Source: Candidatus Omnitrophota bacterium (GTDB lineage: Bacteria > Omnitrophota > Gorgyraeia > 2-01-FULL-45-10). From it: a DNA stretch of 49,011 nt. The notes below the pieces were generated by a model. It made no database searches. It worked only from the letters and a program-made list of their open reading frames with translations, and was not told the DNA's origin. Where the stretch lies: assembly GCA_028715345.1 (NCBI GenBank), contig JAQUSB010000012.1:1-49011 (forward strand), given 5' to 3'. A program made the translations under genes and the position numbers. Below, in pieces: positions 15,004 through 37,222 of this stretch (positions are counted from its first letter, which is position 1; every line of letters begins with the position of its first letter).

Positions 15004-18000
15004 ATGCGTAAACTGACTGTAGCGACGATCCTGGCAATGCTGGCACTGGCCGTATTCGCAGCGCCGTCCTATGCCGTCACCGAGTTCGTCTGTACGATCG
15101 CGCCGTCGGGCGGAGACTACACGTCGCTTTCTAGCTGGAACGCGAATAACCAGGCTGACCTCTCCTCCGGCACAGTAGCCTTATCCCACAGCGGTATAAC
15201 CGGTACGATAGCCGACGGTTCTTATGTAAAGGGCGCGACAAGCGGCGCGTATGGTACTGTCGTTCACGTTACCTCAAGCCAGATATGCATCAAATCAGTT
15301 ACGGGGACATTTGCATCTAATGAAAAAATAGATAAAACAAGTACCCTTAACGGTACGGCCACAGGCACAGATCATGTTACATCATCGACAGTCCCTGATA
15401 GTGTGATCGCTGTAGCCAAGATAGACGGCGACTGGACAGGCGCCCCGGACACGACAGCGGTAACGATAGACGGTTGGACGACGTCGAGCGCTAACTATAT
15501 TAAAATTTATACTACACCGACGGCCAGGCATACGGGTAAATGGAATACGGGCGCGTATATTCTATCTGTTACGGCAAGCGCGAATAGCACAGCGGCGTTA
15601 TATATTAAGGAAAACTATGTAACAGTAGAGGGGTTACAGGTGCTTTTGACAAATTCGGGGGGATATACGGCTTGCATGGGAATTAAAATAGATAGCCAAG
15701 ACGCATCGGCGACGATTAATATATGGAAGAATATTGTGCGTGGAGCCATATCCGGGACAGATTCACAGGGGTATGGAATTTACTGTAATAATTCTAATAT
15801 CACTGGGAATATTTACAATAATTTAGTGTATTCTTTTGTGAATGGATCTGTTGTTTACGAGTCAGGTATCACTATAAATACCGGGGGTACATATTATCTT
15901 TACAATAACACGGTTTATGGGAATTATTATGGCATTAAATGTAATGCCGGAACCGTAACCGCTACAAATAACATCGCTAACGCCAATAATACGGATTATG
16001 CGGGGACTATCGCTACCAGCGCTACGAATATTTCGAGCGATGCCACCTCGCCTGATACATCTTATCGCAGTAAGACCGTTACTTTTGTCAGCACTACTTC
16101 AGGCAGTGAAGACTTCCACCTCTCATCGGGCGACACGAACGCGAAGAACACCGGCACCGACCTCTCAGGTACATTCACCGATGATATAGAAGGTATTAAT
16201 AGAGGTGCGGGAACCAGTATATGGTGTATCGGCGCATCCGAATACGGCATAGTCTGGCTGGGGACCACCTCTACCTCCTGGGGAACGGCCGCCAACTGGA
16301 CAGGCGGCTCTGTCCCGGGCACGAACGACGCCGTTATATTTAATTCCACATCAGCCGCTTATGATTGCGCACTAAGCGCCGATACCACCGTCGCTTCTAT
16401 CTCTATGCAGTCCGGTTATACGGGTACGATCACCCAAGGGTCGTACACACTTACAGTAAGAAGTTTCAGTCAGGCGGCAGGGACGTTTACCGGTGGAAGC
16501 GCGGCGATAACACTCAACGGCAACTACACTCTATCCGGCGGGACATTCACATCCACGAGCGGGACGCTGGCACTAAGTACCTGTAATTGGAATCACTCAG
16601 CAGGTACTTTTACCCACAATAACGGAACGTTAGTATTTGAGGGGACGTGTACATTTAAGGTGCCTGTTACGGAAACGTTCAATATCATTACGCCAAAAAG
16701 TCAGGCTATTGGTACGATCCAAGAAGGGAATACGTTAATTGTGGTTGGGACCTTGACACTAAACCCTGGTTGCTTTTTGGGAGGTACGCTTCAGCCACAG
16801 GGCTCTCTAGTGTTGGAAACTTATAAGTATGGGTGCACTACTACCTCTACAATTAGTTATGTAACATCCGGAGATCAGACCATTGTCGCTAACAGTGGTA
16901 AATACTACTATCACTTTTCCGGTAATTTTTATATCAACAAACCTTCAGGCACAGTTACGGTTACAGGATCAGGAATACCAACTTTTGGTGCTTTTACTCT
17001 GGTATCCGGGAACTTCAGCTGTCCTAATAATGATTTGATAGTTGGATGTTACCCCGGTGATAATGCGCATCATTTCACTTTAAGCGGGGGGACATTTACA
17101 GCGCCAGGATCCGGGCATATACTGTATATAAATAAGGGGAATTGGATTCATACTGCGGGTACTTTTAAGCATAATGACGGAACCGTGATATTTGATTCGG
17201 ACAATAGTCCCACTGCCCGTAGCATTGCAGCAACTACTACCGAGACATTCTATAATTTAACGCTATATTATGAGAGTTCGGTTACTATACCCTCTGGTAA
17301 TAAGGTAACAGTGCTTGGTGATTTCAAACTCGACAAAGGATACATAAATACTGGTACATTAGACCTAAGAGGTAACATGTTGGTAACAGCAAGCGGCTAT
17401 GGTGGATCAGCGGCTATTGAATTTAATGGGACAAGCGCGCAGACCGTGACTTTAAAATATGCAGGATTTCCAACGGGTGCGATTACCGTTAATAATTCTG
17501 CGGGGGTAACTTTTACTCCGGACAGCGGTATAACGTTTCCCGTACCCGGCGCAGTTACAATAAACAGCGGCACGCTATCCCTTGGAGGTAACACGACATT
17601 TTCTGACAATGTCACTATCAGTTCAGGCGGCACACTATCATCTTTTGTCGGCGGAGGAATCATAACTTTTAAAAACAGTAAAACTGTAACGGTTGATTCA
17701 GGCGGGACGCTCACATTATACGGAGCCCCCGGGAACCTGCTTACCTTAAATAGCGATAATACGGCCAAATGGATCTTAAACGCGGCCGCAGGGTCTATCT
17801 ATAACATAGATTATGTGAGCGCTAATTATTCGAACGGGTCGCCCAACACTATCCATGCCGGCCCAAACTCGACGATAAGTAACTGCACTAACTGGGATAC
17901 CGGCGCCTCAGTGTGCACATGGGACGGGTCGGAGTCTACGGCATGGGATACGGCCGCTAACTGGAGCACGGGTTCTGTTCCGACGTCGACTACCAGCGTC

Positions 18001-21000
18001 GTGATACCGAGCGGGTGCGCTAATTATCCTACCTTAGCCAACTCGACTACAGTGTTCGCGCTTACCGTAAATAGCGGGGCGAGCGCTACATTGAATGACG
18101 ATCTCACCGCGACCGTTGGCGTTCGTAATGCGGGCACGCTCACTCTGGCGGCTTCCAAAACCCTCACCGCCGGCGGAGTAGATTTTACGAGCGGCACATT
18201 TACCCCGGGCACAGGCTCGACGGTGATATTGACGACATCTAACGGTTCAGGAGGTTTAGTTACCGGAGGAAATAGTTTTTATGATCTGACGGTTTCTTCG
18301 GGATCATTTACGTTTAAACAAGGATTGGCGGATACGCTTACTGTTACGGGGACATTGGCTATTTCCAGTGGAGGTACACTATTATGCCCATACACGGATC
18401 TCACCACAACTACCACAGATTCTACAGGCGCTACAGTCGCCGGCGGTAAAGGCCGTACCATCACAGCCGCAAACATCGACATCCAAACAGGCGGCAGCCT
18501 TAACGCGGATGGGTGCGGGTTTGGGGCAGGCGCGGGGCCGGGCAAGGCCAACGGCGGTGCTTCTTATGGAGGTGTGGGGCAAGTGTCTACTGTAACTTAT
18601 GGTTCTGCGGGAAATCCAACTTCGCTTGGATCTGGCGCAAATACAGCAGCAGGCGGCGGAGCGATAATACTTAATGTTTCAGGTACGTTAACGGTAGCGG
18701 GAACTCTAAGTTCGAATGGTGCAGGTAGTGGTAGTTATGGTTCTTCGGGAGGTACTATTAATATCACTGCTGGTACGTTAGCAGGATCAGGTACGATATC
18801 CTCGAATGGTGGGATTCAATATTACGGGGGTAGTGGTGGACGAATATCTTTAGTGAATGTGACCACAAATAATTTTTCGGGAACACTCCAAGCTAATGGT
18901 GCTTTTGGGTACGGTGGTTACGCTGGAACTATTGCTTTTCCTTCGGGATACAATTTAACGCTGGGTGGTTCGGGCAATATGACAACATTGCGTTTGGGAA
19001 GCGATGGGTCATATAATTATACTTTTGGCACAATCACTATAAATTCAGGAGGGACATTAGAAATAGACGGTAATCCGACTATGAACTCATCCAATGGCGG
19101 AGCCGCGACAATATCCGCAACCAGTATAGATGTAAAAAGCGGTGGAGCTATAAGCGCAAATGCATTTGGTTTTTGCTGGGGACATGATGGACCTGGATAC
19201 GGTGCTAATAACATAGGCGGCACCTATGGAGGAGAGGCATGTGGTAACACAAATTTGACGTATGGGTCTTTAACAAATCCAATAAATTTAGGAAGTCAAG
19301 GTGTTTCAATTACGGGTGGAGATGGTAATGGAGGTGGGGCTGTAATATTATCTGTTTCGGGAACATTAACTGTTGATGGTAATATTAGCTCAAATGCAAA
19401 AACGGCAATTACTTACTCTGGTGGGGCCGGCGGGTCTGTAAATATTAGTTGTGCGACATTAACAGGTACAGGAACTATTACAGCTAATGGTGGGGCTAGT
19501 TATTATCCATCCGGCTCAGGCGGACGTATTGCTATTAAACAAACAACGGGTACAGGTTGGACACCAACTATTCAAGCTTTAGGCGCGACTTCTGGTGCTT
19601 CAAGTAGTAATTATAGTGCCGCGGGCACAGTCTACCTCGAAGACGCAAATGACGGCGCTGGTAAAGGCGAACTGATCATTGATAACAACAGTATCGCAAC
19701 AGCAAGCGGTGTCGATACCTTAATATCCTCTTCGGTTACGGATTGCTCTGTCGGCGACGTTATAATACGTAATGCAGGTAAATTGCAGATGGCCTCAGGA
19801 ACGACGCTGGCCTGTAAAGGCTCATGGACGAATACGGCAGGCACAGATCTTACGGAAGGTACGGTAGCATTTAGCGGCGCTACAACATCTAAAACGATCA
19901 CTGCGGGAGGAAAAGCCTTCTATAATATTTCTTTCGATGGCGCAGACGGCGGGTCATGGACACCGTCAGATACATTGTATGTTAAAGGTAACTGGACGAA
20001 CGCTGCGACCGGCGGGTTTACATGCAGTACCGGTACGGTAAGCCTCGGCGGCACAGCTCAGAAGATATTGGGATCGACGACATTCTATAATTTAAGTAAA
20101 TCCATCTCGGATGCTGCGGATACCTTAATGTTCGAGAATTCCAAGGCCCAGACGATCTCACCCGGCGGGAAGCTGACGTTAGCCGGTACTTCCAGCTACG
20201 CGCTTTCACTGCGCTCCTGCGACTCGAGCGGCGCGCAGACCGACGGCACACAATGGGAGCTGGCCGTGAACGGCCTGTCGGACGTAAGCTACGCCGATGT
20301 AAAGGATTCGGACGCTTCGGCAGGGATGATGGTTATAGGTGTAGATTCCACCGATTCCCTGAATAACCTTAATTGGAGTTTCGTTTCGGGCACGACGCGT
20401 TACTGGGTGGGCAACTCAGGAAACTGGAGCGATGCCGCGAACCATTGGGCGGCCTCTTCGGGCGGTACGGCAGGCTCGGCGAACGCGCCTGTTGCGGGCG
20501 ACAACGTCGTCTTCGACGCCAATTCCGGCTCAGGCACCGTCACTATAGACACAGCGGGTGTCTCGTTAGGCAACCTGATCGACAGCTCACCTAATATTAC
20601 GATAGCGACGAGCACGAACGGCATAGCGGTTGCAGGCAATCTGGCCGTGAACGGCACTTTGTCCGGCACCGCGGCGGTGACGGTATCGGGTACGTCGAAG
20701 ACCATATCGGGCACAGGCACCATCTCCGCGCCCTTAACCCTGGGCGCAGATTATACAATTAACGTAAACTCGGGAACACTTACCATAAGCGGTGTTATCA
20801 GCGGAGCATACGCGGTCACGAAGACAGGCTCGGGCACGGCCGTATTTTCCGGCACCAACACTTTCACCGGAGCTCTCACGGTATCGGAAGGAACGATATC
20901 GGTCCCCACGGTAAATAACGACAGCGCTGACGGCCCTCTGGGAAATAACGCCGGCGTCGTTACCCTGGGTTCATCCGGGAAGAACGTGACATTCAAATAC

Positions 21001-24000
21001 ACAGGCGCTAACGTTACAAGCACGAAGAAATTTACTATGGCCGGCGGCAGCTCTAATAGTTTCCAGGTCGACACGGCCGGTGCGACGCTTACTCTTTCCG
21101 GCGTAATCGACGGTTCCGGCGCTCTGTGTAAAACAGGCAGTCAAACATCGATGCTAATGTTGGGTGGAGAAAACACCTTCTCCGGCGGTGTGACGATCAA
21201 GGCCGGGATAGTTGCGCTTTCCACCAGCGCAAATGCAGCAGGCACTGGAACGATAACTATTGGAGATACAGGCGGGAGCGCAAGCGCTACATTGCATGTA
21301 GTAACTAATCTGACTATTGGTAATGCAATTGCAGTAGCGTCGGGTAGCAGCGGGGCGCTTAGTATAAAATCTTATGCTCCTACAACTTTTAGTAATACGA
21401 TTACTTTAGCAAATAATATTTCAATGGGCGCTGGTGGTGGATGGGGTTCTGATATTGAATGCAATGGTGATATTAATGGAACGGGAACGATTACCGTTGA
21501 TAGCGTTATAGGCAGTATTATAGCTATAAACGGCGCTATTGGCTCGGACATAACGGGTATTATTCAAAATAGTTCAGCGTCGCAACTTCAGCTTTCTGGC
21601 GACAATAGCTCTTATGCTAGAGGTGTTACAATTAAAAAAGGAACAGTAGTTTTGCTGACAAGTAATAATGCAGTTGGTACGGGAACAATTACTTTGGGTG
21701 ATATATCTGGTAGTGATAATGCAAGATTACAAATAGGACCAGGCTTAACTATTGGTAACGCAGTTACAGTGGAATCGGGTAGCAGTGGAACGGCAACAAT
21801 TGGCCCATATGATAATTCTTGGAGTGAAGTTACAGTAAGTGGAGCTATTACTTTGAGTAAGTCATTAACGGTAAATAATGCTGGGTCGTCACCAATTACT
21901 TTCAGTGGAGGCATAACTGGTACAGGTAATTTGACAATTGATAATAAAAGCAATAAGGCATTTAATTTTACTACTGGTAGCATAGACAACACAGGAACAA
22001 TTACCAACCAGGGGGCAGGAACCAGCACTACAACTATTTCAGCAACCATTGGCTCACATGTCACCGGCATCACGCAGAATTCCAGTACGTCAAAGTTGTT
22101 GCTATCCGGGAATAACTCCACCGTTGGGGGAGTCACGATCTCATCAGGCACGCTGGAGCTTTCCGGCACCACGAATCTCAATCTCTCCGGCAATTGGACA
22201 AACTCCGTCGGCACGGCAGGATTTGCCGCAAATTCTAGCACGGTTACTTTGACCGGCTCGGGTCAGAAGCTGTTAGGCTCCACTGCGTTTTACAATCTCA
22301 CGAAAAATATATCGGGCGGATCCGCCGATACGCTGTACTTCCAGTCCGGCCAGACACAGGCTGCGACAGGCGCTTTGACGCTTACCGGCGCGTTGGGCAA
22401 GATACTGACTCTTCGCTCCTGCGACTCGAGCGGTACCCAGACGGACGGAACGCAGTGGAAACTGCAGATGAGCGGAACGGGCTCCGTCACCTATGTCGAC
22501 GTGAAGGATTCGGACGCTTCCCCGGGCAAGACCGTGACAGCGACTTATGCGACCGACTCTTCGAATAACCTGAATTGGAATATCAGCGCCGCAGGAGTAG
22601 GTTCTACCGTTAAATTGTGGAAAGGCGGAACTTCGAACGTCTGGGCGCTTGCCGATAACTGGAAGCTTACCGACGGCGTCACCGCTACGACGGTGCCGTC
22701 CGCTACGGATACCGTGTATATAGACGGAAGCTATACGAACGCGCCGGTAACTACGGCGAGCGCGACGACGACTATCGGAACTTTGGTCACAAGCGGCGCT
22801 TCTACGCTTACGCTGGGCTCCGGCGGTAACCTCACCGTGAGCGGCGATTGCAATATCTATAACGGCTCTACGGTTACATACACGCAGGGCGCAGCCGCGG
22901 ATTTAACTGTGAACGGCACGCTGACTATCGCCGGCGGCGGCACACTCACATGCCCGTATACGGACCTTACCACAACCACTCAAGACTCTCAGGGCAATAC
23001 TGTTGCAGGCGGCAAAGGCCGCACCATCACCGCGGCGAATATTACTATAGATTTGGGCGGCAGCCTGAACGCGGATGGGTGCGGGTTTGGGGCAGCTGCG
23101 GGGCCGGGGATAGGAAATAGTGGAGGAAGCCATGGTGGAAGAGGCGGAGACTATAATGGCAGTGGTACAGTAGGAAATACTTATGGTGATTTTACGAATC
23201 CCGTTTCTTTAGGAAGTGGCAGTACTTCTAATTCCTCTGGGTCAAAGGGTGGTGGCGCTATCATTATCTCGTCTACAGGTACAGTAACTGTAAACGGAAC
23301 ATTGAGTGCAAATAGTTCTACCGCAAATCTTAATTATTCTACTGGTTCAGGCGGGAGTATTAATATTACCGCTGGAACTTTAACAGGGTCAGGAGTTATC
23401 CAGGCAAACGCTCTTAACGCCAATACTTCCACAGGTGCCGGTGGTCGTATCAGCTTATATAATGTAACAACGGATACTTTTAGCGGTACATTAGAAGCTA
23501 AGGGGGGAACAAATACTTATAATAATTGTGGCGCGAGAGGATATGCCGGGACTATTTGTTTGAGTAACACAAAACGCTCTAATCTTGTTATAGGAGGAAC
23601 CGGTAATATTAGTTCTTTACGATTAGGTTCGGACGGAACAAATAATTATGCTTTAGGAACCATTACTATACAATCAGAAGGAGTTTTAGAAATAGATGGT
23701 AACCCCTATATGAATTCAAGTAATGGAGGTGCGGCTACACTGAACATTACATCTTTAGATGTACAAACGGGAGGCATTTTAAAAGCGGATGGCCTTGGTT
23801 TTCCATGTTCAGCCGGGCCCGGACGTAGTACTTCGGAAGATTATGAAGGTGGTAGTTATGGAGGGGAAGGAGGCGATATAAAAGATGGTGTCGTTGGCAC
23901 GACCTATGGCTCTATTACAAATCCTATAAATTTAGGAAGCGGATCTAACGCCACGCTCGGGGGGAGTGGTGGAGGGGCTGTAATTATATCCGCTAGTGGT

Positions 24001-27000: not shown

Positions 27001-30000
27001 GCCAATATCGCCAAATCAAGCGCTTCTACTTATATAAGGACCACAGCCGCTACCATCAAGACGCCCGTCTCTTATGGCGCGAGTTCGGTAGTTCCGATAA
27101 CGGACGGAAGCGCGATGCAGGTTACCGCATATACCGCGGACACGACGGCCCCGGCGCTATCGAGCTGGTCGCTCGATATGAACGCGTATACGATGACTCT
27201 GGATTTCAGCGAGAGCGTGAAAGCGTCGAGCTGGACGCCGACGGCGGTGACCCTGCAAAACTCGGCCTCCGCTACGAAATCGTTCACGCTTACGGCAGGC
27301 TCTACGACGGCGAGCGCTAACGGCACGCAGATCGTCGTGACTTTATGCGCGGCGGATTTTAACTCGCTCGTCGATTACACGGGCGGCGGGCTCTGCACCG
27401 CGCAGGGCGACAGTTACCTGACTTTGACCGCATCGGCGATAACCGATATGGCCGCTGCGCCCAATAGCGTTACCGCGGTTACGACAGGCGTGAACGCGTC
27501 GGCATACACCGCGAACACCCAGCCAGCCACCAATTTCTACCTGACTACCTCGGGGGCGTCGCAGACTACTGTTACGGCCGGTGAGGCGAAACAGATCACG
27601 GTAACGGCTTATGACGCTTCGGGTTACAGAATGCCGGCTTATGCGGGAGATAAGGGTATCGTATTTTCGGGATCGAACGCATCGCCGGGAGAATATAATC
27701 CGACAGCCAGAGATAAGACTAACGCCGATTTGGATTTCGGGACTTTGACCGCTCTCACTTTTTCTAACGGCCGGGTATCTACCTACCTTATGTTGTACTG
27801 TAAAGAGAACGCTTCGATAAAAGCTACCGACGGCACAGTGATAACTGCCGATGTCAATGCTTTGCAGGCCACCGTAGGCGCCGAAGTCAAGCAGTCGCTC
27901 GCTTTTTCGCAAGCGCCTTCCTCGACGGGCACCATTAACGTCGTATTGGAGACGCAGCCGGAAGTGATAGTGAAAGACTTATACGGCAACCAGGTCGATA
28001 CCGACGGCGACAGCATCACTCTGTACGCGTATGATCCTTCGACGGGCGCTCCGGTGACGTCCGGGGCCATTATCGCGACGGCGAACCCGGTAGTTACTAC
28101 GGCGGGTAAGGCGGTCTTCGAAGGAGTGACGTTCGATACTGCCGCTACCATTTATCTGTTTGCCGATTCCAGCGGACTTATGTCCTCATCCTCGGGCAAC
28201 ATAATATTTACGACGGCAGGGACCAGCACCGTCGACGCGCCAAGTTCCGCTGTGGCCGATTTCGACCTTATACCTACGAACGATAACGTTAACGGCCAGA
28301 AATTTGCGGTATTAAAATTTAAAGTTACGGATCACGGCGGCGATGCTACTCCTACGAATATAGACGTGATAAAGATAGCGATAGGCGGGACGGGCGCTAA
28401 TGCCGGCGGCAATGGCACCACTATCCCTGCCGATATAGCCTGGGCGGGAATATCTAAGACCGACGGGGCGAGCTTTATAGCGACACCGGTGAGTATCGAT
28501 AATAACTACATTACGTTCGGCGCCTCCGGCACGGTCATGGACACGGTGAGCGATACAGGGACGGGCTCGAGCACCGAATACGCCGTCTACATATATATGC
28601 GTAACGGGAAGCTGACCGCTACGGAAGGGCAGACTTATACATTCGGTACCGATGAATCGCTCCTGACGCCGCACGCGACAGGCTCTTCGCTGATGTCGCC
28701 TACGGCGTCCGCGACGCCGCCTGCGACAGTGACGGGAACTATAACAGTGGACCAGACCCACTGGGAGATCATCGATGCCTTAAGCGGCAGTTCCGCGATA
28801 AGCGCTACCGCAGGCACGAAGAAGGAGCTCATGATACGCGCCGTAGACGCGAATAAGAATATCGATAAAGATTACGGCGACGCCACATTCGGCGCGAATA
28901 AGACGCTCGTATTCAGCGGGCTATCTACCATAGGCTCGCATTATCCTACGATAGAGAGTACTAATTTCGGCGTCAGCACCGTCTTGAGATTTTACGCCGG
29001 CGCTACTCAATATGCTTCCGGGACAGATACGGGCGGGGCGACGCTGATGGCATACACGAGGGAATCGGGCAGTATCTCGATAACCTCGCCGGTAAACCCG
29101 TCCACCGGGATCGCGTATATAATGCACAGTAATTCAGTGGCAGCGGCCGCGGCGAGCCCGAGCGTTCTTACGGCTACAAGCGGCGGAGGCCAGACGGGTA
29201 AGACGTCCAAACAGCTGCCGGCTTCGCTTGTCGCGACGGCAACGGACGCATACGGTAATACGGTCCCGGACCAGGCGATCACATTCTCTGTGGCCGGCCC
29301 CGGCGCCGCGACGATGACCCCGTCAGACGGCATAGTCAACACCGATTCCGTAGGACGGTCCTCGATATTGCTTACCCCGGGCGCGACTGACGGGGCGTAT
29401 GTGGTTACCGCCACGCCGAGCGGGTGGGGCTCGGCGGTTACATTCGACGATTGTTACGCTCGCACGCCCAGAGGTATATACATAGTCAGCGGTGACGGCC
29501 AGTCTAAGGCGATAAACCTCGCTTTGGATGACCAACTCGTCTGTAAACTCGTCGATGTGGCTTCCGGGAACGGGAATGCGATACCTGCCGAGACGATAGA
29601 TTTCAGTTTCTCGTCGGTGCCTACGGATGCGATAAACTACTCGGTCGCTCCGTCGAGCGCAGTGACGGGGCTTATGTCGAGCGCTGCTCCGGGACAGGTC
29701 ACTACTACATCGGTTAAGCTGGGCGACAAAGCGGGCGCTTACTATATAAGAGCGACTTATACAGGCGTTACGCCGAACCTTACGACAGATTTTACGGCTA
29801 ATGCCGCATCTCTGGGGGCGACCAAGATAGTATTGACCGGGCCTTCTTCTATCACGGCGGGCCCTCCGAGCGTAGCGGCTACGCCGTTTGTTATTACGGC
29901 TAAAGACGCTTACAATAACATAGTTGCCATGACTACGGCCACTACATTTGACCTTACTACGACACATTCGTCTTCGGGCTCGTTCTACTCGGACAGCTTG

Positions 30001-33000
30001 TGCGCCGGCGCCCCCATAACCTCGGTTACTATAGGAGTGGGGTCATCGGCGGGGCAATTCTACTATAAAGATACGCTTACAGGTTCATGCACTATTACAG
30101 CTACGAAAGCCACGGGCGGGCAATCTCTGCCTGACGGCTCCATGAGCTCGGCTTCAGCCGCCATAATACCGGCGAGCATCAGTTACTTTACCGTTGCCGC
30201 CGGCGACTCTACTACCGTCACAGCCGGCGCGGCCAGAACGATCACGGTAACCGCTTACGACCCCTTTAATAACCCGGCGACGAACGCCGGCACGGTCCCC
30301 GTGACATTCGACTCTACGCTTGTAAATTTGTCTCCTTCGGGCCAGGCTCCTACGGTCAATGGCGTAGCCATAGGCAGCTCGACGCCGCTTGATTTCAGTC
30401 CCGGCACCGGAGCCGTAAGCGTGCCGTTACTTTTGTACAAAACCGAGACTGCACAGATAAAAGCGGCTTCGGGAAGCGCTACCACGCCGAGTCCGCTGTC
30501 GCTTAAGGTCAAACACACCTCGGCCGACCACGCTGAATTTGCGACCAATATCTCGAGTCCTCAGTCTGCCGGCGCGGCATTTTCGCTGCCGGCCATCAAT
30601 GTCGTCGACCTGTACGGCAACGTATGCGACGCGACGAACGGCGGCACACCTTATAGCGATACGCCGTCTTCCAATAACGTTACTTACACGCTTTCTACGG
30701 GCTCTACTATGAGCCCGGACCAGCTGAATACGAATACTTATACGAGGACAGTTGCTTTCGCAAACGGCGTATCTACTACGGCCCTTACCGCTACTATATA
30801 TAAAGCCGAAACCGCTAACATAACCGCGGCCGTATCCGGAGTGAGCGCGGGCACTAATACGGCTTCTAATTCGGTTACCATAGAAGCCGGCGAGATAAAT
30901 AAGCTTAATTTCGAGCAACAGCCGCCGCTTACATGCGTTACTTCGCAGCTATTGTCGCCGCAGCCTAAGGTGGCGGTGGGCGATGCATACGGCAATCCAT
31001 GCACTAATGCTACGGCAAATATAACCATCGCGGCAGTTACCGATACGAACGGTACGCCTGCTACGAACGGTATCCTGAGCGGTACGACGACGAAGGCCCT
31101 GTCGAGCGGCGTGGCCGCATATACCGACATAACTTATAGCTATCCCGAGACCATATACCTGAAGGCGACGGTATCCGGCATAAGCCTGGCCGCGATATAC
31201 TCGTCCCAGACGCAGTTCACCGCCACATATGACTTGAGCGCCGCAAATTTGACGTCTGCGGAAAAGACGGCTAAAGGTATCACCGGATCGGCCTCGTCCA
31301 TCGCAAACAGCAACGCAACCCCTGTTTACGGGTTTAAGGTCACCGATGCCGGCACGGACGGCCTCAGCGGCCTTATAACCAAGATAGTCATTAACAGGTC
31401 GGCGAACGATACTACGGGAGACTGGACTACCTATATATCGGATGCATGGATAACGGATATGACGGTAGCCGGTTCGACGCCCAGGCTTGGTACGGTTACC
31501 GCCGGCTCTATAACATTCGGAGACGGTACAAGCACTATTTACACCGTTCCTAATAATAATGCCGCGACGCCGAGGGTTTATGTGCTGAGCGTAACGCTGA
31601 AAAATCCTCTGCCGGCCGGAGCGGACGGCAAAGTTTTAGGATTTTCGCTGGTATCGAATAGCGATATAAGCGTGGATTCGGCTTTGGGTTCCGTATTTGC
31701 CGCCGCTACGACGGTTGCCGATACTTCGACGGTGACAGTAGCCGCTACGGACCTTAAAGTAGCCGGCAGCGCCGCCACGATGAATGCCGGCGACAGCGTT
31801 ACATTGACTATAAGCGCCATCGATGCCAACGGCAATATCGATAAAGATTATGCGGGAGACAAGGGGCTCACATTCAGCGGCGCCAGCTCTTCATCGAACG
31901 GCACCGTCCCGACAGTGACGGATAATATAGGCACGGCCAGGGCCTTCGGCGCGTCTACGCTTACGACTTTCGCAAGCGGCGTTAACAGCGCCTCTAAAAC
32001 CATTACTATGAAATTGTACACAGCCGAGGTAGCGTCCATTGCCGTTTCGGACGGCGTTCTCTCGACGAAGGCCGCGAGCAAATTTGCCATCACGGTAAGC
32101 GGCGGAGTAGCCTCGCAGCTTTTCTGGCAGACGCAGCCTGTCTCTATGGTCGTCGCTTACGCGCCGTGGCAGAGTTTCATAGTAACGGTCGCAGACGCTT
32201 ACGGTAATACGTCTTCGAGCACCGCGAACATAACGGTAACTCCGTCCGGGACGGGTGTACATGTCGGCGCAGGCGCCGAAGCTACGGTGGCCGCGACCGC
32301 CGGAGTAGCTACCTTCAATAATTTCTTCGTATGGTGCGATTCGTATCCGGGCGCGGTTACGTTGACCGCCTCGGCGGATGCCTCCGGCGTCACTAACTCC
32401 GTAGCGTCAAACTCTGTCCAGGTGGACCAGGTCTACCAGATCACCCTGAACTTGAAAGACTCGGTGACTGCCACGGCCCTGACGGGCGTGTCGTTGACGA
32501 TCCAGCAGACCACGAACGGCGTGACGTCGGTCGTGTACGGCCCTGTCGTGGGGAACAGCCCGTTTACGTTTACGCTGCCATACGGTACATACACCTTTAA
32601 GGCAACGCTCGATAAATACGTCGATTACAGCGCAGAGGAAACCGTCGGGGTCGCCGCAGACGGCGGCGACGGCGCTTACGATAACTCGATCGACTGGGTC
32701 AGGTATATGACCACGCTTACGGAAGCGACGGCCGATTATAACGTAAAATCGAGTTTCGTGTACGATGAAGACAACGACAAGCTCTATATCCGTCTCTGGC
32801 TCGAGAGACGCGGCAAGCTTATACTGAATAATTCATTGAACCTGTTAGGCCCGGGAACCGTCGATGTTTATGACGATGCTACCGAAACGTGGCTTACCAC
32901 GGTAAATCTTACGCCGCCGGCTTCTGCCGATCTGGTGAACGGGACTTACCTGGCCGAAGTGGATAACGTAATAACGTCCTCTTCGAACCTCTTGGGTAAG

Positions 33001-34428
33001 GCCCTGACTTCCGGCAAGACGTATTTTGCGCAGTGCAGGATAAATTACGGCGGGCTTGCCGGCACTGCCAATCTTTACGAAAGCGGCACTACTCTTACGG
33101 TTACCAATACCCAGAAGCTGGGCGAGGAGATCATGAGCAAACTCGGAGTGCCCGCGGGTGAAACTCTGTCGGGCCAGGTAGCGACGGTATTATCGGCCGT
33201 GAGTACTGCGAGCACAAAGATAGACCAGGTAAGCACCAAAGTCGATACGGTCGGCGCCAAAGTGGACACCGTTTCGTCCAAAGTCGATACGGTCGGCACG
33301 GATGTCAGCGCTACAAGCTCTAACGTTACGGCCATACTCTCGGATGTAGAGACTACTCTTCCTGCACAGATAACTTCCACCGTTACGTCGATAGCGGAGA
33401 AAGGCGTGCTGTCGGAAATACTTACGCGCGATTCCATCATACGAGTCGGTGACAGCATAGCCATAAGGTACCGCACTGCTACGGGCCTCAGTCCGATCAT
33501 AACAGTTTATGATTCGAACGGCGCTGTCGTCGTCCCCGGGCCTACGGTCAGCGGTACGTCTTATTCCAAGTATTCCGGCATTCCGATGAAGGAGATCAGC
33601 TCCGGCACAGGCATTTATGAATCTACGGTCACGGCAGAGGACAGTTGGGCGCCCGGCGACAGCATGGTGGATTATACTGTAGTATGCCAGGAGTCGACTA
33701 AAGGGTCTAAAGACAGCATGATACTTACGGTCTCGCCGTTATTCGTGGCCGGCGCCACAGTGGAGCAGTCTATAGAGAATTTGGGATACGCGGTTACGAA
33801 AGTTTACTCGAGGGCGGGTACCATACAAACTCTTTTAGGTACGAAGACGGATAATACCCGTAACGGCACGGTCATGGGCCAGGTCAACAACTTAAACAGC
33901 ACCATAAACGGCCTGAATCTTACCTCGGTCGCCAGCGATTCGAAGCAGGCGAGGATGAATGCCCTGAAGGCCGCCGAAGATATCAGTACCATAAAAGATC
34001 AATTCAGCAGTATGCAGGCCAAGATAGATTCGCTCAAAGACCTTACGACACAGTTGGATACTTTTAAATCGAGCCTTGCCAAGATATCCGGGGCCACCGG
34101 CACTACTACTATAGTAGGCGCGGGCGTTGCCACGTCTGGCATCAGCGGCGGCATAGCTCCCGAAGAGGCCGGACTGCACGGCGGGATCACCGGCGAGAAG
34201 ATCACCATGAAAGTGGCCAAGGCGGAAGGCTTGCCTGGCGCTAAGATCAAAGAAGCGTCCGCGCAGGACATAGCCAGTCTCATGGCAGGCGATTTTGCCA
34301 AGGCAAACGATGTCAGGGATATAGGCAATAAAGTCGAGGAACTGACCGCGCTTACAAAGATAATTACGAAACTCATCGAGAGCACTTCGAACAAACCTGT
34401 AATCGAAGGATGGTTCGAGAAAGAATAA
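15004..34428 (+). CDS. Giant secreted beta-solenoid/Ig-repeat surface protein (6474 residues)
   Basis: A single open frame of 19,425 bases encodes roughly a 640-kDa protein. Residues 1-24 are a signal peptide ending PSYA; GGAG eight bases before the ATG sets the start. By residue: 35-410 parallel beta-helix; about 416-960 module I; 966-1793 module II (Gly/Ser-rich strand repeats); 1798-2536 module III (autotransporter-associated strand type, NTFTG/NTFSGG); 2537-3336 module II again; 3340-3920 module I again; 3925-4173 two SbsA-like Ig domains; 4173-5810 many Ig-like repeats (KDAYNN, VVDLYGN motifs); 5813-5893 a carboxypeptidase-regulatory-like domain; 6039-6139 and 6250-6360 coiled coils around an Ig-like domain. 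Several modules open with a WxxxxNW motif. There is no LPXTG, barrel or C-terminal membrane span. Likely a cell-surface or released adhesin exported by the adjacent secretin system; function is inferred. Confidence 0.93.
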   Translation: MRKLTVATILAMLALAVFAAPSYAVTEFVCTIAPSGGDYTSLSSWNANNQADLSSGTVALSHSGITGTIADGSYVKGATSGAYGTVVHVTSSQICIKSVTGTFASNEKIDKTSTLNGTATGTDHVTSSTVPDSVIAVAKIDGDWTGAPDTTAVTIDGWTTSSANYIKIYTTPTARHTGKWNTGAYILSVTASANSTAALYIKENYVTVEGLQVLLTNSGGYTACMGIKIDSQDASATINIWKNIVRGAISGTDSQGYGIYCNNSNITGNIYNNLVYSFVNGSVVYESGITINTGGTYYLYNNTVYGNYYGIKCNAGTVTATNNIANANNTDYAGTIATSATNISSDATSPDTSYRSKTVTFVSTTSGSEDFHLSSGDTNAKNTGTDLSGTFTDDIEGINRGAGTSIWCIGASEYGIVWLGTTSTSWGTAANWTGGSVPGTNDAVIFNSTSAAYDCALSADTTVASISMQSGYTGTITQGSYTLTVRSFSQAAGTFTGGSAAITLNGNYTLSGGTFTSTSGTLALSTCNWNHSAGTFTHNNGTLVFEGTCTFKVPVTETFNIITPKSQAIGTIQEGNTLIVVGTLTLNPGCFLGGTLQPQGSLVLETYKYGCTTTSTISYVTSGDQTIVANSGKYYYHFSGNFYINKPSGTVTVTGSGIPTFGAFTLVSGNFSCPNNDLIVGCYPGDNAHHFTLSGGTFTAPGSGHILYINKGNWIHTAGTFKHNDGTVIFDSDNSPTARSIAATTTETFYNLTLYYESSVTIPSGNKVTVLGDFKLDKGYINTGTLDLRGNMLVTASGYGGSAAIEFNGTSAQTVTLKYAGFPTGAITVNNSAGVTFTPDSGITFPVPGAVTINSGTLSLGGNTTFSDNVTISSGGTLSSFVGGGIITFKNSKTVTVDSGGTLTLYGAPGNLLTLNSDNTAKWILNAAAGSIYNIDYVSANYSNGSPNTIHAGPNSTISNCTNWDTGASVCTWDGSESTAWDTAANWSTGSVPTSTTSVVIPSGCANYPTLANSTTVFALTVNSGASATLNDDLTATVGVRNAGTLTLAASKTLTAGGVDFTSGTFTPGTGSTVILTTSNGSGGLVTGGNSFYDLTVSSGSFTFKQGLADTLTVTGTLAISSGGTLLCPYTDLTTTTTDSTGATVAGGKGRTITAANIDIQTGGSLNADGCGFGAGAGPGKANGGASYGGVGQVSTVTYGSAGNPTSLGSGANTAAGGGAIILNVSGTLTVAGTLSSNGAGSGSYGSSGGTINITAGTLAGSGTISSNGGIQYYGGSGGRISLVNVTTNNFSGTLQANGAFGYGGYAGTIAFPSGYNLTLGGSGNMTTLRLGSDGSYNYTFGTITINSGGTLEIDGNPTMNSSNGGAATISATSIDVKSGGAISANAFGFCWGHDGPGYGANNIGGTYGGEACGNTNLTYGSLTNPINLGSQGVSITGGDGNGGGAVILSVSGTLTVDGNISSNAKTAITYSGGAGGSVNISCATLTGTGTITANGGASYYPSGSGGRIAIKQTTGTGWTPTIQALGATSGASSSNYSAAGTVYLEDANDGAGKGELIIDNNSIATASGVDTLISSSVTDCSVGDVIIRNAGKLQMASGTTLACKGSWTNTAGTDLTEGTVAFSGATTSKTITAGGKAFYNISFDGADGGSWTPSDTLYVKGNWTNAATGGFTCSTGTVSLGGTAQKILGSTTFYNLSKSISDAADTLMFENSKAQTISPGGKLTLAGTSSYALSLRSCDSSGAQTDGTQWELAVNGLSDVSYADVKDSDASAGMMVIGVDSTDSLNNLNWSFVSGTTRYWVGNSGNWSDAANHWAASSGGTAGSANAPVAGDNVVFDANSGSGTVTIDTAGVSLGNLIDSSPNITIATSTNGIAVAGNLAVNGTLSGTAAVTVSGTSKTISGTGTISAPLTLGADYTINVNSGTLTISGVISGAYAVTKTGSGTAVFSGTNTFTGALTVSEGTISVPTVNNDSADGPLGNNAGVVTLGSSGKNVTFKYTGANVTSTKKFTMAGGSSNSFQVDTAGATLTLSGVIDGSGALCKTGSQTSMLMLGGENTFSGGVTIKAGIVALSTSANAAGTGTITIGDTGGSASATLHVVTNLTIGNAIAVASGSSGALSIKSYAPTTFSNTITLANNISMGAGGGWGSDIECNGDINGTGTITVDSVIGSIIAINGAIGSDITGIIQNSSASQLQLSGDNSSYARGVTIKKGTVVLLTSNNAVGTGTITLGDISGSDNARLQIGPGLTIGNAVTVESGSSGTATIGPYDNSWSEVTVSGAITLSKSLTVNNAGSSPITFSGGITGTGNLTIDNKSNKAFNFTTGSIDNTGTITNQGAGTSTTTISATIGSHVTGITQNSSTSKLLLSGNNSTVGGVTISSGTLELSGTTNLNLSGNWTNSVGTAGFAANSSTVTLTGSGQKLLGSTAFYNLTKNISGGSADTLYFQSGQTQAATGALTLTGALGKILTLRSCDSSGTQTDGTQWKLQMSGTGSVTYVDVKDSDASPGKTVTATYATDSSNNLNWNISAAGVGSTVKLWKGGTSNVWALADNWKLTDGVTATTVPSATDTVYIDGSYTNAPVTTASATTTIGTLVTSGASTLTLGSGGNLTVSGDCNIYNGSTVTYTQGAAADLTVNGTLTIAGGGTLTCPYTDLTTTTQDSQGNTVAGGKGRTITAANITIDLGGSLNADGCGFGAAAGPGIGNSGGSHGGRGGDYNGSGTVGNTYGDFTNPVSLGSGSTSNSSGSKGGGAIIISSTGTVTVNGTLSANSSTANLNYSTGSGGSINITAGTLTGSGVIQANALNANTSTGAGGRISLYNVTTDTFSGTLEAKGGTNTYNNCGARGYAGTICLSNTKRSNLVIGGTGNISSLRLGSDGTNNYALGTITIQSEGVLEIDGNPYMNSSNGGAATLNITSLDVQTGGILKADGLGFPCSAGPGRSTSEDYEGGSYGGEGGDIKDGVVGTTYGSITNPINLGSGSNATLGGSGGGAVIISASGTVNVNGTISADGYGNTNRGYGSGGSVNIAASSITGSGTIRANSYTTAYSGGGGRVALKQISGTSWAPTVTAYGGLTGSNKGAAGTVYLEDANDGAGKGELIIDNNSIATASGTDTLISSSVTDCSVGDVTIRNSGTLQMASGTTLTCKGSWTNTAGTDLTEGTVAFSGATTSKTITAGGKAFYNISFDGADGGSWTPSDTLYVNGNWTNAATGGFTCSASTVSLGGTAQKILGSTTFYSLSKSVSSADTLYFDNTSTQTFAPGGTLTLAGALNNLLSLRSCDAGGTASDGSAWELAVNGSMSVSYVDAQDSDASYGATVLASDSTDLGNNLNWTFADSNTNRWIGTTSTAWATATNWSKGTAPSTTDNVLINGTYDNAPTLSSAATVASIKVSGASTLTLNALLTTTGTAQLYTGAAITCGTGGAVSIGGAYTQSGGTFTGGATDCTINGAFTLSGGTFNAPSGTFTVCPTVPDATSWNHTSGTFNCGSGTVVISNNCTNYKTQTIVVPTTETFNDLILTSNSNAITTVISSGNTLIVGGTFTHRGRYHSINTGTIQAQGNVILKLDANAGRGTATINFVTAGDQTITADAGSGTCNINIAKPSGTVTVSGGSMSIPGLTISSGSFNGGSGDISINGQYIQSGGTFTSTSGILTVSYNASAGTVWNHTAGTFNHNDGTVVIYGRDMVAQVINDTMSNPFYNLTIRFPGGHDGYGLTISSGTTLVVNGTFTEGDTSGATFFLGTGTIQANGPVVIGPYANGGSASITMSGTSAQTITFNGGNTPGGVITINNSAGVTTSGSAIFSGAVTVSAGTLSLGDTTTFSDNVTVSSGGTLTCAAGKTTTFGAGKTLNVASGGIVNFAGTDASTLVTLRSSASGAYWDLTKNGTVNADYVDVKDSNSSATIIATNSTDSGHNVNWNISATLRLNSWDLNMDAGTLIMHFNQAVDPATLNAAGLTIQDAATAGAGNSYELTGGATSSPQGADITVNLTATDLNAIKANANIAKSSASTYIRTTAATIKTPVSYGASSVVPITDGSAMQVTAYTADTTAPALSSWSLDMNAYTMTLDFSESVKASSWTPTAVTLQNSASATKSFTLTAGSTTASANGTQIVVTLCAADFNSLVDYTGGGLCTAQGDSYLTLTASAITDMAAAPNSVTAVTTGVNASAYTANTQPATNFYLTTSGASQTTVTAGEAKQITVTAYDASGYRMPAYAGDKGIVFSGSNASPGEYNPTARDKTNADLDFGTLTALTFSNGRVSTYLMLYCKENASIKATDGTVITADVNALQATVGAEVKQSLAFSQAPSSTGTINVVLETQPEVIVKDLYGNQVDTDGDSITLYAYDPSTGAPVTSGAIIATANPVVTTAGKAVFEGVTFDTAATIYLFADSSGLMSSSSGNIIFTTAGTSTVDAPSSAVADFDLIPTNDNVNGQKFAVLKFKVTDHGGDATPTNIDVIKIAIGGTGANAGGNGTTIPADIAWAGISKTDGASFIATPVSIDNNYITFGASGTVMDTVSDTGTGSSTEYAVYIYMRNGKLTATEGQTYTFGTDESLLTPHATGSSLMSPTASATPPATVTGTITVDQTHWEIIDALSGSSAISATAGTKKELMIRAVDANKNIDKDYGDATFGANKTLVFSGLSTIGSHYPTIESTNFGVSTVLRFYAGATQYASGTDTGGATLMAYTRESGSISITSPVNPSTGIAYIMHSNSVAAAAASPSVLTATSGGGQTGKTSKQLPASLVATATDAYGNTVPDQAITFSVAGPGAATMTPSDGIVNTDSVGRSSILLTPGATDGAYVVTATPSGWGSAVTFDDCYARTPRGIYIVSGDGQSKAINLALDDQLVCKLVDVASGNGNAIPAETIDFSFSSVPTDAINYSVAPSSAVTGLMSSAAPGQVTTTSVKLGDKAGAYYIRATYTGVTPNLTTDFTANAASLGATKIVLTGPSSITAGPPSVAATPFVITAKDAYNNIVAMTTATTFDLTTTHSSSGSFYSDSLCAGAPITSVTIGVGSSAGQFYYKDTLTGSCTITATKATGGQSLPDGSMSSASAAIIPASISYFTVAAGDSTTVTAGAARTITVTAYDPFNNPATNAGTVPVTFDSTLVNLSPSGQAPTVNGVAIGSSTPLDFSPGTGAVSVPLLLYKTETAQIKAASGSATTPSPLSLKVKHTSADHAEFATNISSPQSAGAAFSLPAINVVDLYGNVCDATNGGTPYSDTPSSNNVTYTLSTGSTMSPDQLNTNTYTRTVAFANGVSTTALTATIYKAETANITAAVSGVSAGTNTASNSVTIEAGEINKLNFEQQPPLTCVTSQLLSPQPKVAVGDAYGNPCTNATANITIAAVTDTNGTPATNGILSGTTTKALSSGVAAYTDITYSYPETIYLKATVSGISLAAIYSSQTQFTATYDLSAANLTSAEKTAKGITGSASSIANSNATPVYGFKVTDAGTDGLSGLITKIVINRSANDTTGDWTTYISDAWITDMTVAGSTPRLGTVTAGSITFGDGTSTIYTVPNNNAATPRVYVLSVTLKNPLPAGADGKVLGFSLVSNSDISVDSALGSVFAAATTVADTSTVTVAATDLKVAGSAATMNAGDSVTLTISAIDANGNIDKDYAGDKGLTFSGASSSSNGTVPTVTDNIGTARAFGASTLTTFASGVNSASKTITMKLYTAEVASIAVSDGVLSTKAASKFAITVSGGVASQLFWQTQPVSMVVAYAPWQSFIVTVADAYGNTSSSTANITVTPSGTGVHVGAGAEATVAATAGVATFNNFFVWCDSYPGAVTLTASADASGVTNSVASNSVQVDQVYQITLNLKDSVTATALTGVSLTIQQTTNGVTSVVYGPVVGNSPFTFTLPYGTYTFKATLDKYVDYSAEETVGVAADGGDGAYDNSIDWVRYMTTLTEATADYNVKSSFVYDEDNDKLYIRLWLERRGKLILNNSLNLLGPGTVDVYDDATETWLTTVNLTPPASADLVNGTYLAEVDNVITSSSNLLGKALTSGKTYFAQCRINYGGLAGTANLYESGTTLTVTNTQKLGEEIMSKLGVPAGETLSGQVATVLSAVSTASTKIDQVSTKVDTVGAKVDTVSSKVDTVGTDVSATSSNVTAILSDVETTLPAQITSTVTSIAEKGVLSEILTRDSIIRVGDSIAIRYRTATGLSPIITVYDSNGAVVVPGPTVSGTSYSKYSGIPMKEISSGTGIYESTVTAEDSWAPGDSMVDYTVVCQESTKGSKDSMILTVSPLFVAGATVEQSIENLGYAVTKVYSRAGTIQTLLGTKTDNTRNGTVMGQVNNLNSTINGLNLTSVASDSKQARMNALKAAEDISTIKDQFSSMQAKIDSLKDLTTQLDTFKSSLAKISGATGTTTIVGAGVATSGISGGIAPEEAGLHGGITGEKITMKVAKAEGLPGAKIKEASAQDIASLMAGDFAKANDVRDIGNKVEELTALTKIITKLIESTSNKPVIEGWFEKE
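16610..17470 (+). other. AT-rich island 1 in the giant gene (module I)
   Basis: Base composition drops relative to both sides while the frame stays open. Row 16681-16740 counts 22 G+C in 60. The protein is solenoid sequence with SWNHxxGTFxHNxGTVxF-type repeats. Borders are approximate. Confidence 0.55.
18385..18545 (+). repeat. Module II left border, copy 1
   Basis: This segment is homologous to 22951-23108. It encodes CPYTDLTTTT, then GGKGRTITAANI, and ends in a stretch (AACGCGGATGGGTGCGGG and beyond) that is nearly identical in DNA in the two copies. The AT-richer island follows at once. Confidence 0.8.
18546..19617 (+). other. AT-rich island 2 in the giant gene (module II, copy 1)
   Basis: This stretch lies between two duplicated GC-rich borders. 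Codons shift to A/T endings; row 18721-18780 counts 26 G+C in 60. It encodes Gly-rich SGGTINIT and GGRISL repeats homologous in protein, but clearly diverged in DNA, to 23109-24243. Confidence 0.65.
19618..20103 (+). repeat. Module II right border, copy 1
   Basis: It aligns without gaps to 24244-24729 at a fixed offset of 4626 bases. Hand count gives 37 mismatches in about 483 bases (about 92% identity); 19861-19980 differs at one base only. It encodes AGTVYLEDANDGAGKGELI through GGTAQKILGSTTFY. Confidence 0.9.
21120..22030 (+). other. AT-rich island 3 in the giant gene (module III)
   Basis: This has the strongest composition change seen: row 21361-21420 counts 14 G+C in 60, against 43 in 60 for row 20461-20520. 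It encodes autotransporter-type strand repeats (GTGTITIGD, GVTIKKGTV). The frame stays open. Confidence 0.65.
22951..23108 (+). repeat. Module II left border, copy 2
   Basis: This is the homologue of 18385-18545, offset 4566 bases. The last 40 bases are nearly identical in both copies, ending where the AT-rich island begins. Confidence 0.8.
23109..24243 (+). other. AT-rich island 4 in the giant gene (module II, copy 2)
   Basis: This is the counterpart of 18546-19617. The proteins share SGGSINITAGTL, LRLGSDG and LEIDGNPxMNSSNGGAA motifs, but the DNA is much more diverged than the two flanking borders and the island is about 60 bases longer. Confidence 0.65.
24244..24729 (+). repeat. Module II right border, copy 2
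   Basis: This is the homologue of 19618-20103, about 92% identical in DNA by hand count and gap-free. Identity ends abruptly after TTTAAGTAAATC. Confidence 0.9.
25440..26390 (+). other. AT-rich island 5 in the giant gene (module I, copy 2)
   Basis: Row 25501-25560 counts 18 G+C in 60. It encodes solenoid repeats homologous to island 1 (TSGTFNCGSGTVVI, TAGTFNHNDGTVVI). The sequence returns to GC-rich after 26390 and stays so to the end of the gene. Confidence 0.6.
33214..33297 (+). repeat. Four tandem 21-base units coding heptads
   Basis: Units start at 33214, 33235, 33256 and 33277. Each encodes one heptad (TKIDQVS, TKVDTVG, AKVDTVS, SKVDTVG) near residue 6071 of the giant protein. The regular hydrophobic spacing predicts a coiled-coil stalk or oligomerisation segment. 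Confidence 0.88.
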
Positions 34429-34454
34429 CGATCGTAAAAACCATAAGAGGGCAT

Positions 34455-35909
34455 ATGGGCAAAAAAAGATTGGTCATTGGTCTATTTTTTTTGTTATTTT
34501 TACTGGTTAGTACCGCGCTTTACGCCGATATAAAATTGAAGATCGCAGTCGTGAACCCTTCCGAGATCGAAAGCCAGACCACCCCTGTGCGCTACGACCT
34601 GCCCAAAGGCATGACGCCCGATATCATAACGGATGCCGGCAACATGGAACTTAAGTACGATTTTGACAAGAATAATTATTACCTTTACCAGGTCGTGAAG
34701 CTTAAGCCTTCCGAAAAGCTTGTCCTGGAGATAAAGCTTAAGGACATGTGGATAATTCCGGCCAAATATATAAATTTCTTGAAAGAGCATACGAGGGCGA
34801 TGAATGCTCAGCTTGCGAATACGCGGCATGCGAAATCCGGCGATACGCTCACCAAAAAGATAATAGACCGCCTCGACGGGATACTGAAAAAAGGGGCGGA
34901 CCAGACCATGACGATGGGCGAGCACATAAACCTTTATTATGAAAATCTCGGGATACTGGGCGAGGTCAAGGAAGATATAGGGATGCTCGAAGATCTGGTG
35001 CTGGATGTGGGCGGGATAGTCGAGGAGAGGGTCCAGGTGCCGGCCACGCTGGCCATCCCGATAAAAACGGACGAAAAGAATAGGGCCGGCGCAGTAGATA
35101 TGACTATAGAGGTCACGAACCCTTCGAAGACATCGAAGCAGACGACTAAAGTAAAATATGTATTGCCCGAAGAGGTTGCGCCGCGTTATGTGATCGACAG
35201 GGGCGATCTGGATATGGGGTATGATTTTACCAAGCAGTCTTTCTATGTTTACAAAGATAGCGTAATGCTCGATCCTTCCGAAACAAAAACTTTCGTAATA
35301 AAGATAATGGACGTGTGGCAGGTCCCCGCTCTTGAACTCGATACCCTGAAAGCCCATACCGATAACCTGATGACCCTTCTCAAGGGCACCGAATATATGG
35401 CGCAGGCAAAGCCTATGGCCGATAAAATAACGGCGAGCCTGAACGAAATAAGGAGGACCCAGGCTTTAAAAGTTTCCGCGGAGGAGCATATAGCTTATTA
35501 CCGCGATAATGAGGAGACCCTTACCGAGGCCAAGAGCCTTGTAAACCAATTGGAGAAATTCGTAAGCCAATCGGGCGCCAGCGCCGGAGTTACGGTGAAA
35601 GAAGCCGAAGTGCAGAAAGGCGGCGGCCCGAAGGAGAAGAGGGCGCGCGGATACGAAGGTATCGATTACATCGTCAGGTCCATATTCAAAGGCAAAGCGC
35701 CTACAGTTGCCACGACGTGGAAAATAATCTATACTATATTGATATTCTTAGGCATTCTGGCGGCATTATTCTTCGGCCTGTGGTTTGTGCAGGTAAAACA
35801 GAGCCACAAGCGGGGTGAGTCTATAGGCCCGGTGGAAAAACGTCCTGCGGAAAAACCGGATATGCTGACGGAGGAGAAGCCGGAAGCGCCGGGAGATAAG
35901 AGTGAGTAG
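34455..35909 (+). CDS. Membrane-anchored exported protein with duplicated domain, unknown function
   Basis: The start is the ATG at 34455, after AAGAGGG and just before a signal peptide (MGKKRLVIGLFFLLFLLV), giving 484 residues; an upstream GTG at 34410 would overlap the giant gene. Residues about 25-190 and 215-385 are two copies of one domain: a beta part (VVNPSEIESQTTPVRYDLP against VTNPSKTSKQTTKVKYVLP), a conserved DMW/DVW followed by IPA or VPA, then long helices. A membrane span lies near 423-447 (WKIIYTILIFLGILAALFFG), followed by a charged, proline-rich cytoplasmic tail. It thus faces the periplasm from the inner membrane. It comes 26 bases after the giant gene and may hold, time or sense its export. 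Family not recognised. Confidence 0.83.
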   Translation: MGKKRLVIGLFFLLFLLVSTALYADIKLKIAVVNPSEIESQTTPVRYDLPKGMTPDIITDAGNMELKYDFDKNNYYLYQVVKLKPSEKLVLEIKLKDMWIIPAKYINFLKEHTRAMNAQLANTRHAKSGDTLTKKIIDRLDGILKKGADQTMTMGEHINLYYENLGILGEVKEDIGMLEDLVLDVGGIVEERVQVPATLAIPIKTDEKNRAGAVDMTIEVTNPSKTSKQTTKVKYVLPEEVAPRYVIDRGDLDMGYDFTKQSFYVYKDSVMLDPSETKTFVIKIMDVWQVPALELDTLKAHTDNLMTLLKGTEYMAQAKPMADKITASLNEIRRTQALKVSAEEHIAYYRDNEETLTEAKSLVNQLEKFVSQSGASAGVTVKEAEVQKGGGPKEKRARGYEGIDYIVRSIFKGKAPTVATTWKIIYTILIFLGILAALFFGLWFVQVKQSHKRGESIGPVEKRPAEKPDMLTEEKPEAPGDKSE

Positions 35910-36919: not shown

Positions 36920-36926
36920 TCCGCTG

Positions 36927-36980
36927 TGTCATTCCCGCGGAAGAGGCGGTTCTGTCATTTTTGCGAAAGCGGGGATCTAT
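36927..36980 (+). repeat. Dispersed hairpin-type repeat remnant between b/delta and c genes
   Basis: TGTCATTCCCGCGG at 36927 is echoed by TGTCATTTTTGCGAAAGCGG at 36953, ending GGATCTAT. This looks like the TGTCATTCCCGC-GAAA-GCGGGAATC family of short palindromic repeats scattered through many bacterial genomes, here imperfect and partly doubled. It sits in the only sizeable gap (82 bases) of the ATPase cluster. Confidence 0.55.
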
Positions 36981-37001
36981 AAGAAGGCAGGGTCTGATTA
37001 T

Positions 37002-37214: not shown

Positions 37215-37222
37215 TATAAATT

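Follow-up and report, generated by a model that had tools for sequence, protein, structure and literature searches.

A Giant Repeat Protein of an Omnitrophota Bacterium, Its Candidate Membrane Anchor Encoded by the Next Gene, and Their F1-ATPase/Type II Secretion-like Locus

How might a bacterium keep hold of an exported protein of 6474 residues that carries neither an outer-membrane barrel, nor a sorting motif, nor a membrane span of its own beyond the signal peptide? The question is raised by one gene in the 49,011-nt stretch of Candidatus Omnitrophota DNA analyzed here (the window), which is one entire contig of a 1.6-Mb, 65-contig assembly. An initial annotation had described the product as a surface protein without a recognizable anchor, lying beside a gene set that resembles a type II secretion system (T2SS). 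The missing barrel, motif, and span and the T2SS-like neighborhood are borne out by our analysis. The supposed lack of an anchor is not, as the likely anchor is the product of the next gene (34410-35909), and in many relatives this product and the giant are a single fused protein. Also passed over were Fo-less F1-ATPase genes (36206-40941) that lie between the giant and the T2SS genes and, across the class, co-occur with the giant-anchor pair. Our reading is that the giant is an exported filament, tethered by its neighbor and part of an F1/T2SS-like locus, and we put the probability of this explanation as a whole at roughly 0.6.

Results and Discussion

Gene content of the window. The features discussed below are as follows (nucleotide coordinates, strand, description).

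5254-5925, +: GspC-like inner-membrane protein with one transmembrane (TM) helix; no family match, assigned by position; homologue in the UBA6210 cluster
5915-7501, +: secretin (GspD/PilQ-like); PF00263, E = 1.5e-42; TIGR02515 and TIGR02517 about equal, both below cut-off
7440-10415, +: exported coiled-coil and TPR protein; true start probably downstream, at about 7545
10412-12288, +: histidine kinase and response regulator pair, by family search
12415-14988, +: DUF2341 protein with signal peptide; a homologue also lies immediately upstream of the UBA6210 giant
15004-34428, +: giant gene, 6474 aa; signal peptide, N-terminal domain, solenoid modules I-II-III-II'-I', Ig-like region, C-terminal beta/coiled-coil module
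32092-34425, +: conserved module at the C-terminus of the giant (profile A3), with PVIEGWFEKE as its terminal motif
34410-35909, +: candidate anchor protein, 499 aa; signal peptide, two beta-sandwich plus helical-bundle repeats, C-terminal TM helix (residues 439-457), charged tail
36206-36919, +: F1-like b-delta fusion with N-terminal TM helix; OSCP, E = 1e-12; ATP-synt_B, E = 3.5e-5
37223-38674, +: F1-like alpha, by family search and homologue comparison
38679-39533, +: F1-like gamma, by family search
39538-40941, +: F1-like beta, with an intact GER motif and an intact Walker A (GGAGLGKT)
40967-42667, +: GspE/PilB-type ATPase, by family models
42669-43934, +: GspF, by family models
43931-44713, +: Peptidase MA-like exported metalloprotease (HEITH); PF13485, E = 5e-15; in the cluster of many relatives
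44670-48835, +: pseudopilins GspG, GspI, GspJ, and GspK and a PilM/PilN-like GspL; contig ends at 49011

Secretin, GspE, GspF, GspG, and GspK are thus present together as a T2SS set. GspG scores 156 bits against a cut-off of 88.9, and GspE, at 603 against 630, falls just below its own. The contig stops at 49011, ahead of any GspM, and up to that point the cluster contains no PilT retraction ATPase; the only above-cut-off PilT of the genome lies on contig C20. Upstream of the set, a GspA/ExeA-like ATPase (4411-5254) is split by a single frameshift near 4485, with its start, MSYYRILGLEAEPF, in one frame and the Walker A in the next, through either a sequencing error or a real break.

The giant is one gene. 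The giant ORF spans 19,425 nt from an ATG to a single stop at its very end, whereas about 304 stops would be expected in 6474 codons at this base composition (log10 P of none = -135); each of the five other frames holds 170-590 stops over the same interval. Because the longest exact internal repeat is only 77 nt (spacing, 4.6 kb), a misjoin from short reads is possible in principle but unlikely. Colinear homologues occur in independent assemblies: the UBA6210 giant, on a 411-kb contig, is a single ORF that follows residues 1-519 and 3925-6472, and Ca. Velamenicoccus archaeovorus, whose genome is closed, encodes a 3244-aa giant that follows residues 3923-6472 with 42% identity, while the repeated block 420-3920 is supported by the present assembly only. 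An assembly artefact that fused several genes via their repeats might be read into the stretches of 76-86% protein identity shared by modules II and II' and into the contigs of close relatives, which break off near the giant position, but the shortness of the exact repeats, the frame open throughout, and the colinear homologues, one in a closed genome, make it exceedingly improbable. We conclude, in line with the initial annotation, that 15004-34428 is one genuine gene.

Architecture of the giant. The signal peptide proposed earlier (residues 1-24) is confirmed, and so is the absence of any second membrane span, the highest interior Kyte-Doolittle mean being 1.51. Comparison of the protein with itself in tiles yields the module order I-II-III-II'-I' that had been read from the sequence: module I (418-985) and module I' (3342-3929) are 35-47% alike, and module II (1094-1800) and module II' (2615-3342) are about 50-86% alike, with III between them. 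The palindrome is one of order; the modules themselves are not inverted. A search of the giant against Pfam and NCBIfam recognized almost no families, and a PDB search with the N-terminal 420 residues gave no match. The solenoid character assigned to the protein finds support in a PATR/autotransporter beta-strand repeat at 1938-1967, the only repeat family to exceed its cut-off; the N-terminal beta-helix of the initial annotation is a putative element. The Ig-like region (3925-6000) is likewise present, with one match to Pfam Big_1 that is below threshold (28.1 bits against a cut-off of 34.9); as it has space for about 15-20 Ig-like domains, the "dozens" first reported were an overstatement. 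The AlphaFold2 model of the last 607 residues, of low overall confidence (pLDDT 54), places helices at 192-266 and 387-496, and the C-terminus matches coiled-coil stalks such as that of UspA1 in sequence (E = 4e-5), which agrees with the C-terminal coiled coils described before.

Homologues of the giant range widely in length, from about 3,200 to 12,900 aa. The member at G158:C1 (226449-265025) is complete and anchor-fused at 12,858 aa, open frames of 10,674 and 8,471 aa at G129:C46 and G070:C1 are further very large members, and at G143:C81 (26795-34448) one anchor is preceded by a tandem pair of giant C-terminal modules. We considered whether such proteins could be periplasmic or cell-wall-spanning scaffolds rather than surface arms. 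A tether in the inner membrane would suit a scaffold, and the crossing of the outer membrane by the giant is only putative. However, the solenoid and the 15-20 Ig-like domains would, if extended, far exceed a periplasm, the repeat types are known from surface proteins, and the length varies widely among homologues; we judge a scaffold very unlikely and favor an arm that reaches beyond the envelope.

The next gene encodes a candidate anchor. The anchor ORF overlaps the end of the giant ORF, stop codon included, by 19 nt. Its product was modeled by AlphaFold2 with a pLDDT of 80; it belongs to no Pfam family and has no PDB relative by sequence, and a Foldseek search with the model returned a best E of 0.03, with nothing below. 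A scan of genome contigs with the single anchor sequence likewise gave no match. Across 147 genomes, anchor homologues are found directly 3' of 40 of the 41 giant C-terminal modules, the sole exception belonging to a locus in which a pair of these modules is arranged in tandem. A TM helix lies in the last 140 aa of nearly all homologues (48 of 50), and in many loci the giant stop and anchor start codons overlap or nearly do so. The giants share a terminal motif, typically P[VI]xxW[FYL]E: in 27 of 38 unfused ORFs upstream of anchors, [WFY][FLYM]E occurs within the last 16 residues, against a background of 2.4%. Two-domain anchors tend to accompany giants that end in WFE plus acidic residues (WFESEE, WFEKE), and one-domain anchors those of the WFEYK/WLEYS types. 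Giant C-termini and anchor types look as if they co-vary, a pattern that shared descent could also explain.

In about eleven examined loci, the giant and the anchor form one polypeptide of up to 12,858 aa. They are in-frame fusions without an intervening signal peptide (G040 C31, G074, G098, G102, G110, G121, G128, G133 C1, G136, G158, and G131 C25, the last a single ORF). Further fusions occur in the named records L109, L111-L113, L120, L124, L127, and L139; L121 and L123 repeat the G158 and G098 contigs, respectively, and add none. The G158 fusion is complete from signal peptide through TM helix. At the junction, the terminal motif or its equivalent leads directly into the first beta strand of the anchor, in place of the signal peptide, as in EPVVQMWYEYRSVVLKAIVINPS (G040 C31) and KPITKTWLEPGSILMNAVVVNPS (G158). 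The G133 C1 frame has N near its start and a clean junction and was kept, and a candidate in G038 was dropped because its frame passes through a run of N. These fusions are the strongest evidence, comparative rather than physical, that the separate giant and anchor would work as one unit. Since anchor homologues follow giants and the two are fused in relatives, the anchor appears to be supplied in trans here, and on this comparative basis we are confident, short of certainty, that the neighboring gene would tether the giant.

The same pairing bears on whether the giant is instead T2SS cargo, released or held at the surface by sugars, with the neighbor acting as a membrane-located periplasmic checkpoint or chaperone and the fusions as loading intermediates that would be cleaved afterwards, for instance by the metalloprotease encoded in the cluster. 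The giant is flanked by T2SS genes, many relatives encode a Peptidase MA-like protease in this cluster, and the anchor is a separate protein in the window, all of which such cargo would explain. Yet fusions with a C-terminal TM helix recur in several families of the class, and nearly every giant is followed by an anchor. We therefore consider released cargo distinctly unlikely and the giant probably a tethered component.

The pair is linked to F1 and T2SS genes. In the window, the F1 cluster holds no a, c, or epsilon subunit and is thus Fo-less. The respiratory F1Fo of the same genome is complete, with a, c, and epsilon, on contig C45, which makes the F1 set of the window a second system. ATPase beta scores are accordingly bimodal (660-847 versus 534-583 bits). 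GspE starts about 25 nt past the end of beta, so that F1 genes lie less than 10 kb from pilus/T2SS-type genes. Among the 147 genomes (≥90% complete), 57 have the special beta, 52 have the anchor, and 48 have both (Fisher p about 1e-24, in a test that ignores shared descent). The beta gene lies 3.6-6.6 kb downstream of the anchor on the same strand in 45 of 64 anchor loci, and a recurrent order is seen in named records: giant, anchor, b-delta, alpha, gamma, beta, GspE, F, G, I, J, K, L.

The linkage has exceptions. In V. archaeovorus and UBA6210, the giant-anchor pair is some 20-35 kb from the beta gene, and G050, G130, and G140 have F1 genes without an adjacent anchor. Most F1 clusters that lack an anchor are cut off immediately upstream by the end of the contig, as are the other unlinked cases examined. 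Since contigs stop where a giant is expected, giants are probably under-counted in metagenome-assembled genomes (MAGs); the records of the closest relatives (L096-L099) and many further loci stop at this position. V. archaeovorus (NZ_CP019384) itself has two giant-anchor pairs, at 655619-666239 and 1758162-1773001, with giants of 3,244 and 4,548 aa. In the first pair the giant lies at 655619-665353 and its anchor at 665298-666239, in the second the giant at 1759355-1773001 and its anchor at 1758162-1758980; the F1 genes of this genome are near 1792929.

As the anchor alignment (A4) was too divergent for a pattern scan, the scan was run with part of the special beta (A5). By this subunit, the closest named records are Omnitrophota MAGs, and V. 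archaeovorus belongs to the same class. The scan also matched ATPase beta genes of Proteobacteria and others, without T2SS genes alongside; these records (L130, L134, L135, L138, L143-L146, and similar, mostly Proteobacteria) match the patterns [VI]PSETGYQ and D[NS]V[YF]RFxQAG. Provided that it is correctly binned, a Kiritimatiellia MAG (L175) shows this gene order, from anchor through F1 set to T2SS genes, outside Omnitrophota, and the locus may therefore extend beyond the phylum.

One may ask whether the F1-like ATPase serves the pseudopilus, in its assembly, rotation, or retraction, with the giant merely co-regulated. GspE lies directly 3' of F1 beta in nearly all loci, even where anchor and giant are absent or distant, as such a role would predict. 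The presence of the special F1 in 48 of the 52 anchor genomes and the usual position of the anchor just ahead of the F1 genes speak against it, and on balance we find it somewhat unlikely. That the giant-anchor pair instead belongs to the same machine as the F1 and T2SS genes is, in our estimation, probable.

Comparison with known systems. In passages of Seymour et al. 2023 (PMC10066038), "symbiotic" F-type ATPase/type-4a pilus loci are described in Omnitrophota, including V. archaeovorus, and these loci and giant ORFs are treated as separate marks of symbiosis. Like them, the window has a second, non-respiratory F1 gene set, separate from the respiratory one of its own genome, beside pilus/T2SS-type genes. 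It differs from the reported type-4a pilus in that, by family models, its set is nearer a T2SS (GspG over cut-off, GspK). The searched passages of that main text mention no link between giant ORF and locus and no anchor family, partner, or fusion; to that extent, the window appears to hold a better-defined form of the reported locus. Giant ORFs of Omnitrophota, among them one of 39,678 aa in V. archaeovorus, also encode very large exported proteins, with a supposed role in contact or predation (Seymour et al. 2023, PMC10066038; bioRxiv preprint of West-Roberts et al. via PMC12057145). The 39,678-aa ORF adjoins neither anchor homologue of V. archaeovorus, each of which is preceded by one of the two smaller giants given above. 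In the literature searched, neither the anchor family nor the giant-anchor unit appears to have been described.

A second likeness is to the gliding motor of Mycoplasma mobile (G1-ATPase, Gli521, Gli349), whose F1-like G1-ATPase is proposed to pull the leg protein through Gli521 (PMC11864180). Both pair an F1-like alpha3 beta3 gamma without Fo with large surface adhesins, and the window holds the corresponding genes, alpha, beta, and gamma without a and c. M. mobile, however, is a monoderm with a dimeric twin motor and GliD/GliE (PMC11864180), whereas the window locus has b-delta as its stator, together with a T2SS, in a diderm envelope.

Like type V autotransporters and trimeric adhesins, the giant has PATR-type repeats and a UspA1-like coiled-coil stalk; unlike type V autotransporters, it matches no barrel family and ends in a coiled coil. 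LapA-type RTX adhesins are giant repeat adhesins that are retained in the membrane, with one end held at the cell. The window giant would likewise be a repeat adhesin held at one end, but a TM-helix partner bound at its C-terminus would retain it; no RTX repeats matched in the giant, and there are no type I secretion genes among its annotated neighbors.

Proposed mechanism. In the mechanism that we favor, the signal peptide would direct export of the giant via Sec, and the C-terminal module and terminal motif, adjacent to the anchor in gene structure, would bind it. The anchor is predicted to have type I topology in the inner membrane, its domain facing the periplasm and its charged tail, beyond the TM helix, the cytoplasm. 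The solenoid and Ig-like part may reach through or past the envelope as an adhesive or contacting arm, which in extended form would be far longer than a periplasm. Passage to the surface would most likely be given by the secretin/pseudopilus system; an inner-membrane tether, though, would be unusual for a T2SS substrate. The Fo-less alpha-gamma-beta ATPase, presumably fixed to the membrane by b-delta, could energize the machine, by analogy with the M. mobile motor proposed to pull leg proteins. That this motor moves or loads the arm is, on this analogy, a tentative suggestion. About as tentative is the fullest version, an undescribed diderm machine with which ultra-small predators or epibionts would grip other cells. 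In it, a dedicated anchor in the inner membrane would clamp the C-terminus of an adhesive arm of about 3,200-12,900 aa, and an Fo-less F1 motor, working alongside the T2SS-like pseudopilus and secretin, would move or load this arm.

Conclusions

These findings bring three puzzling traits of Omnitrophota, the giant ORFs, a spare F1-ATPase, and a pilus/T2SS-like system, together in one testable locus, and they offer an explanation of how a giant without its own anchor may stay attached. V. archaeovorus, a known predator, has two copies of the giant-anchor pair; a public proteome data set exists for it (PXD025008, cited in PMC12583861), so that expression and co-fractionation of the pair can be checked now. 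Should the F1 part drive the arm, F1-like adhesin motors would not be confined to mycoplasmas.
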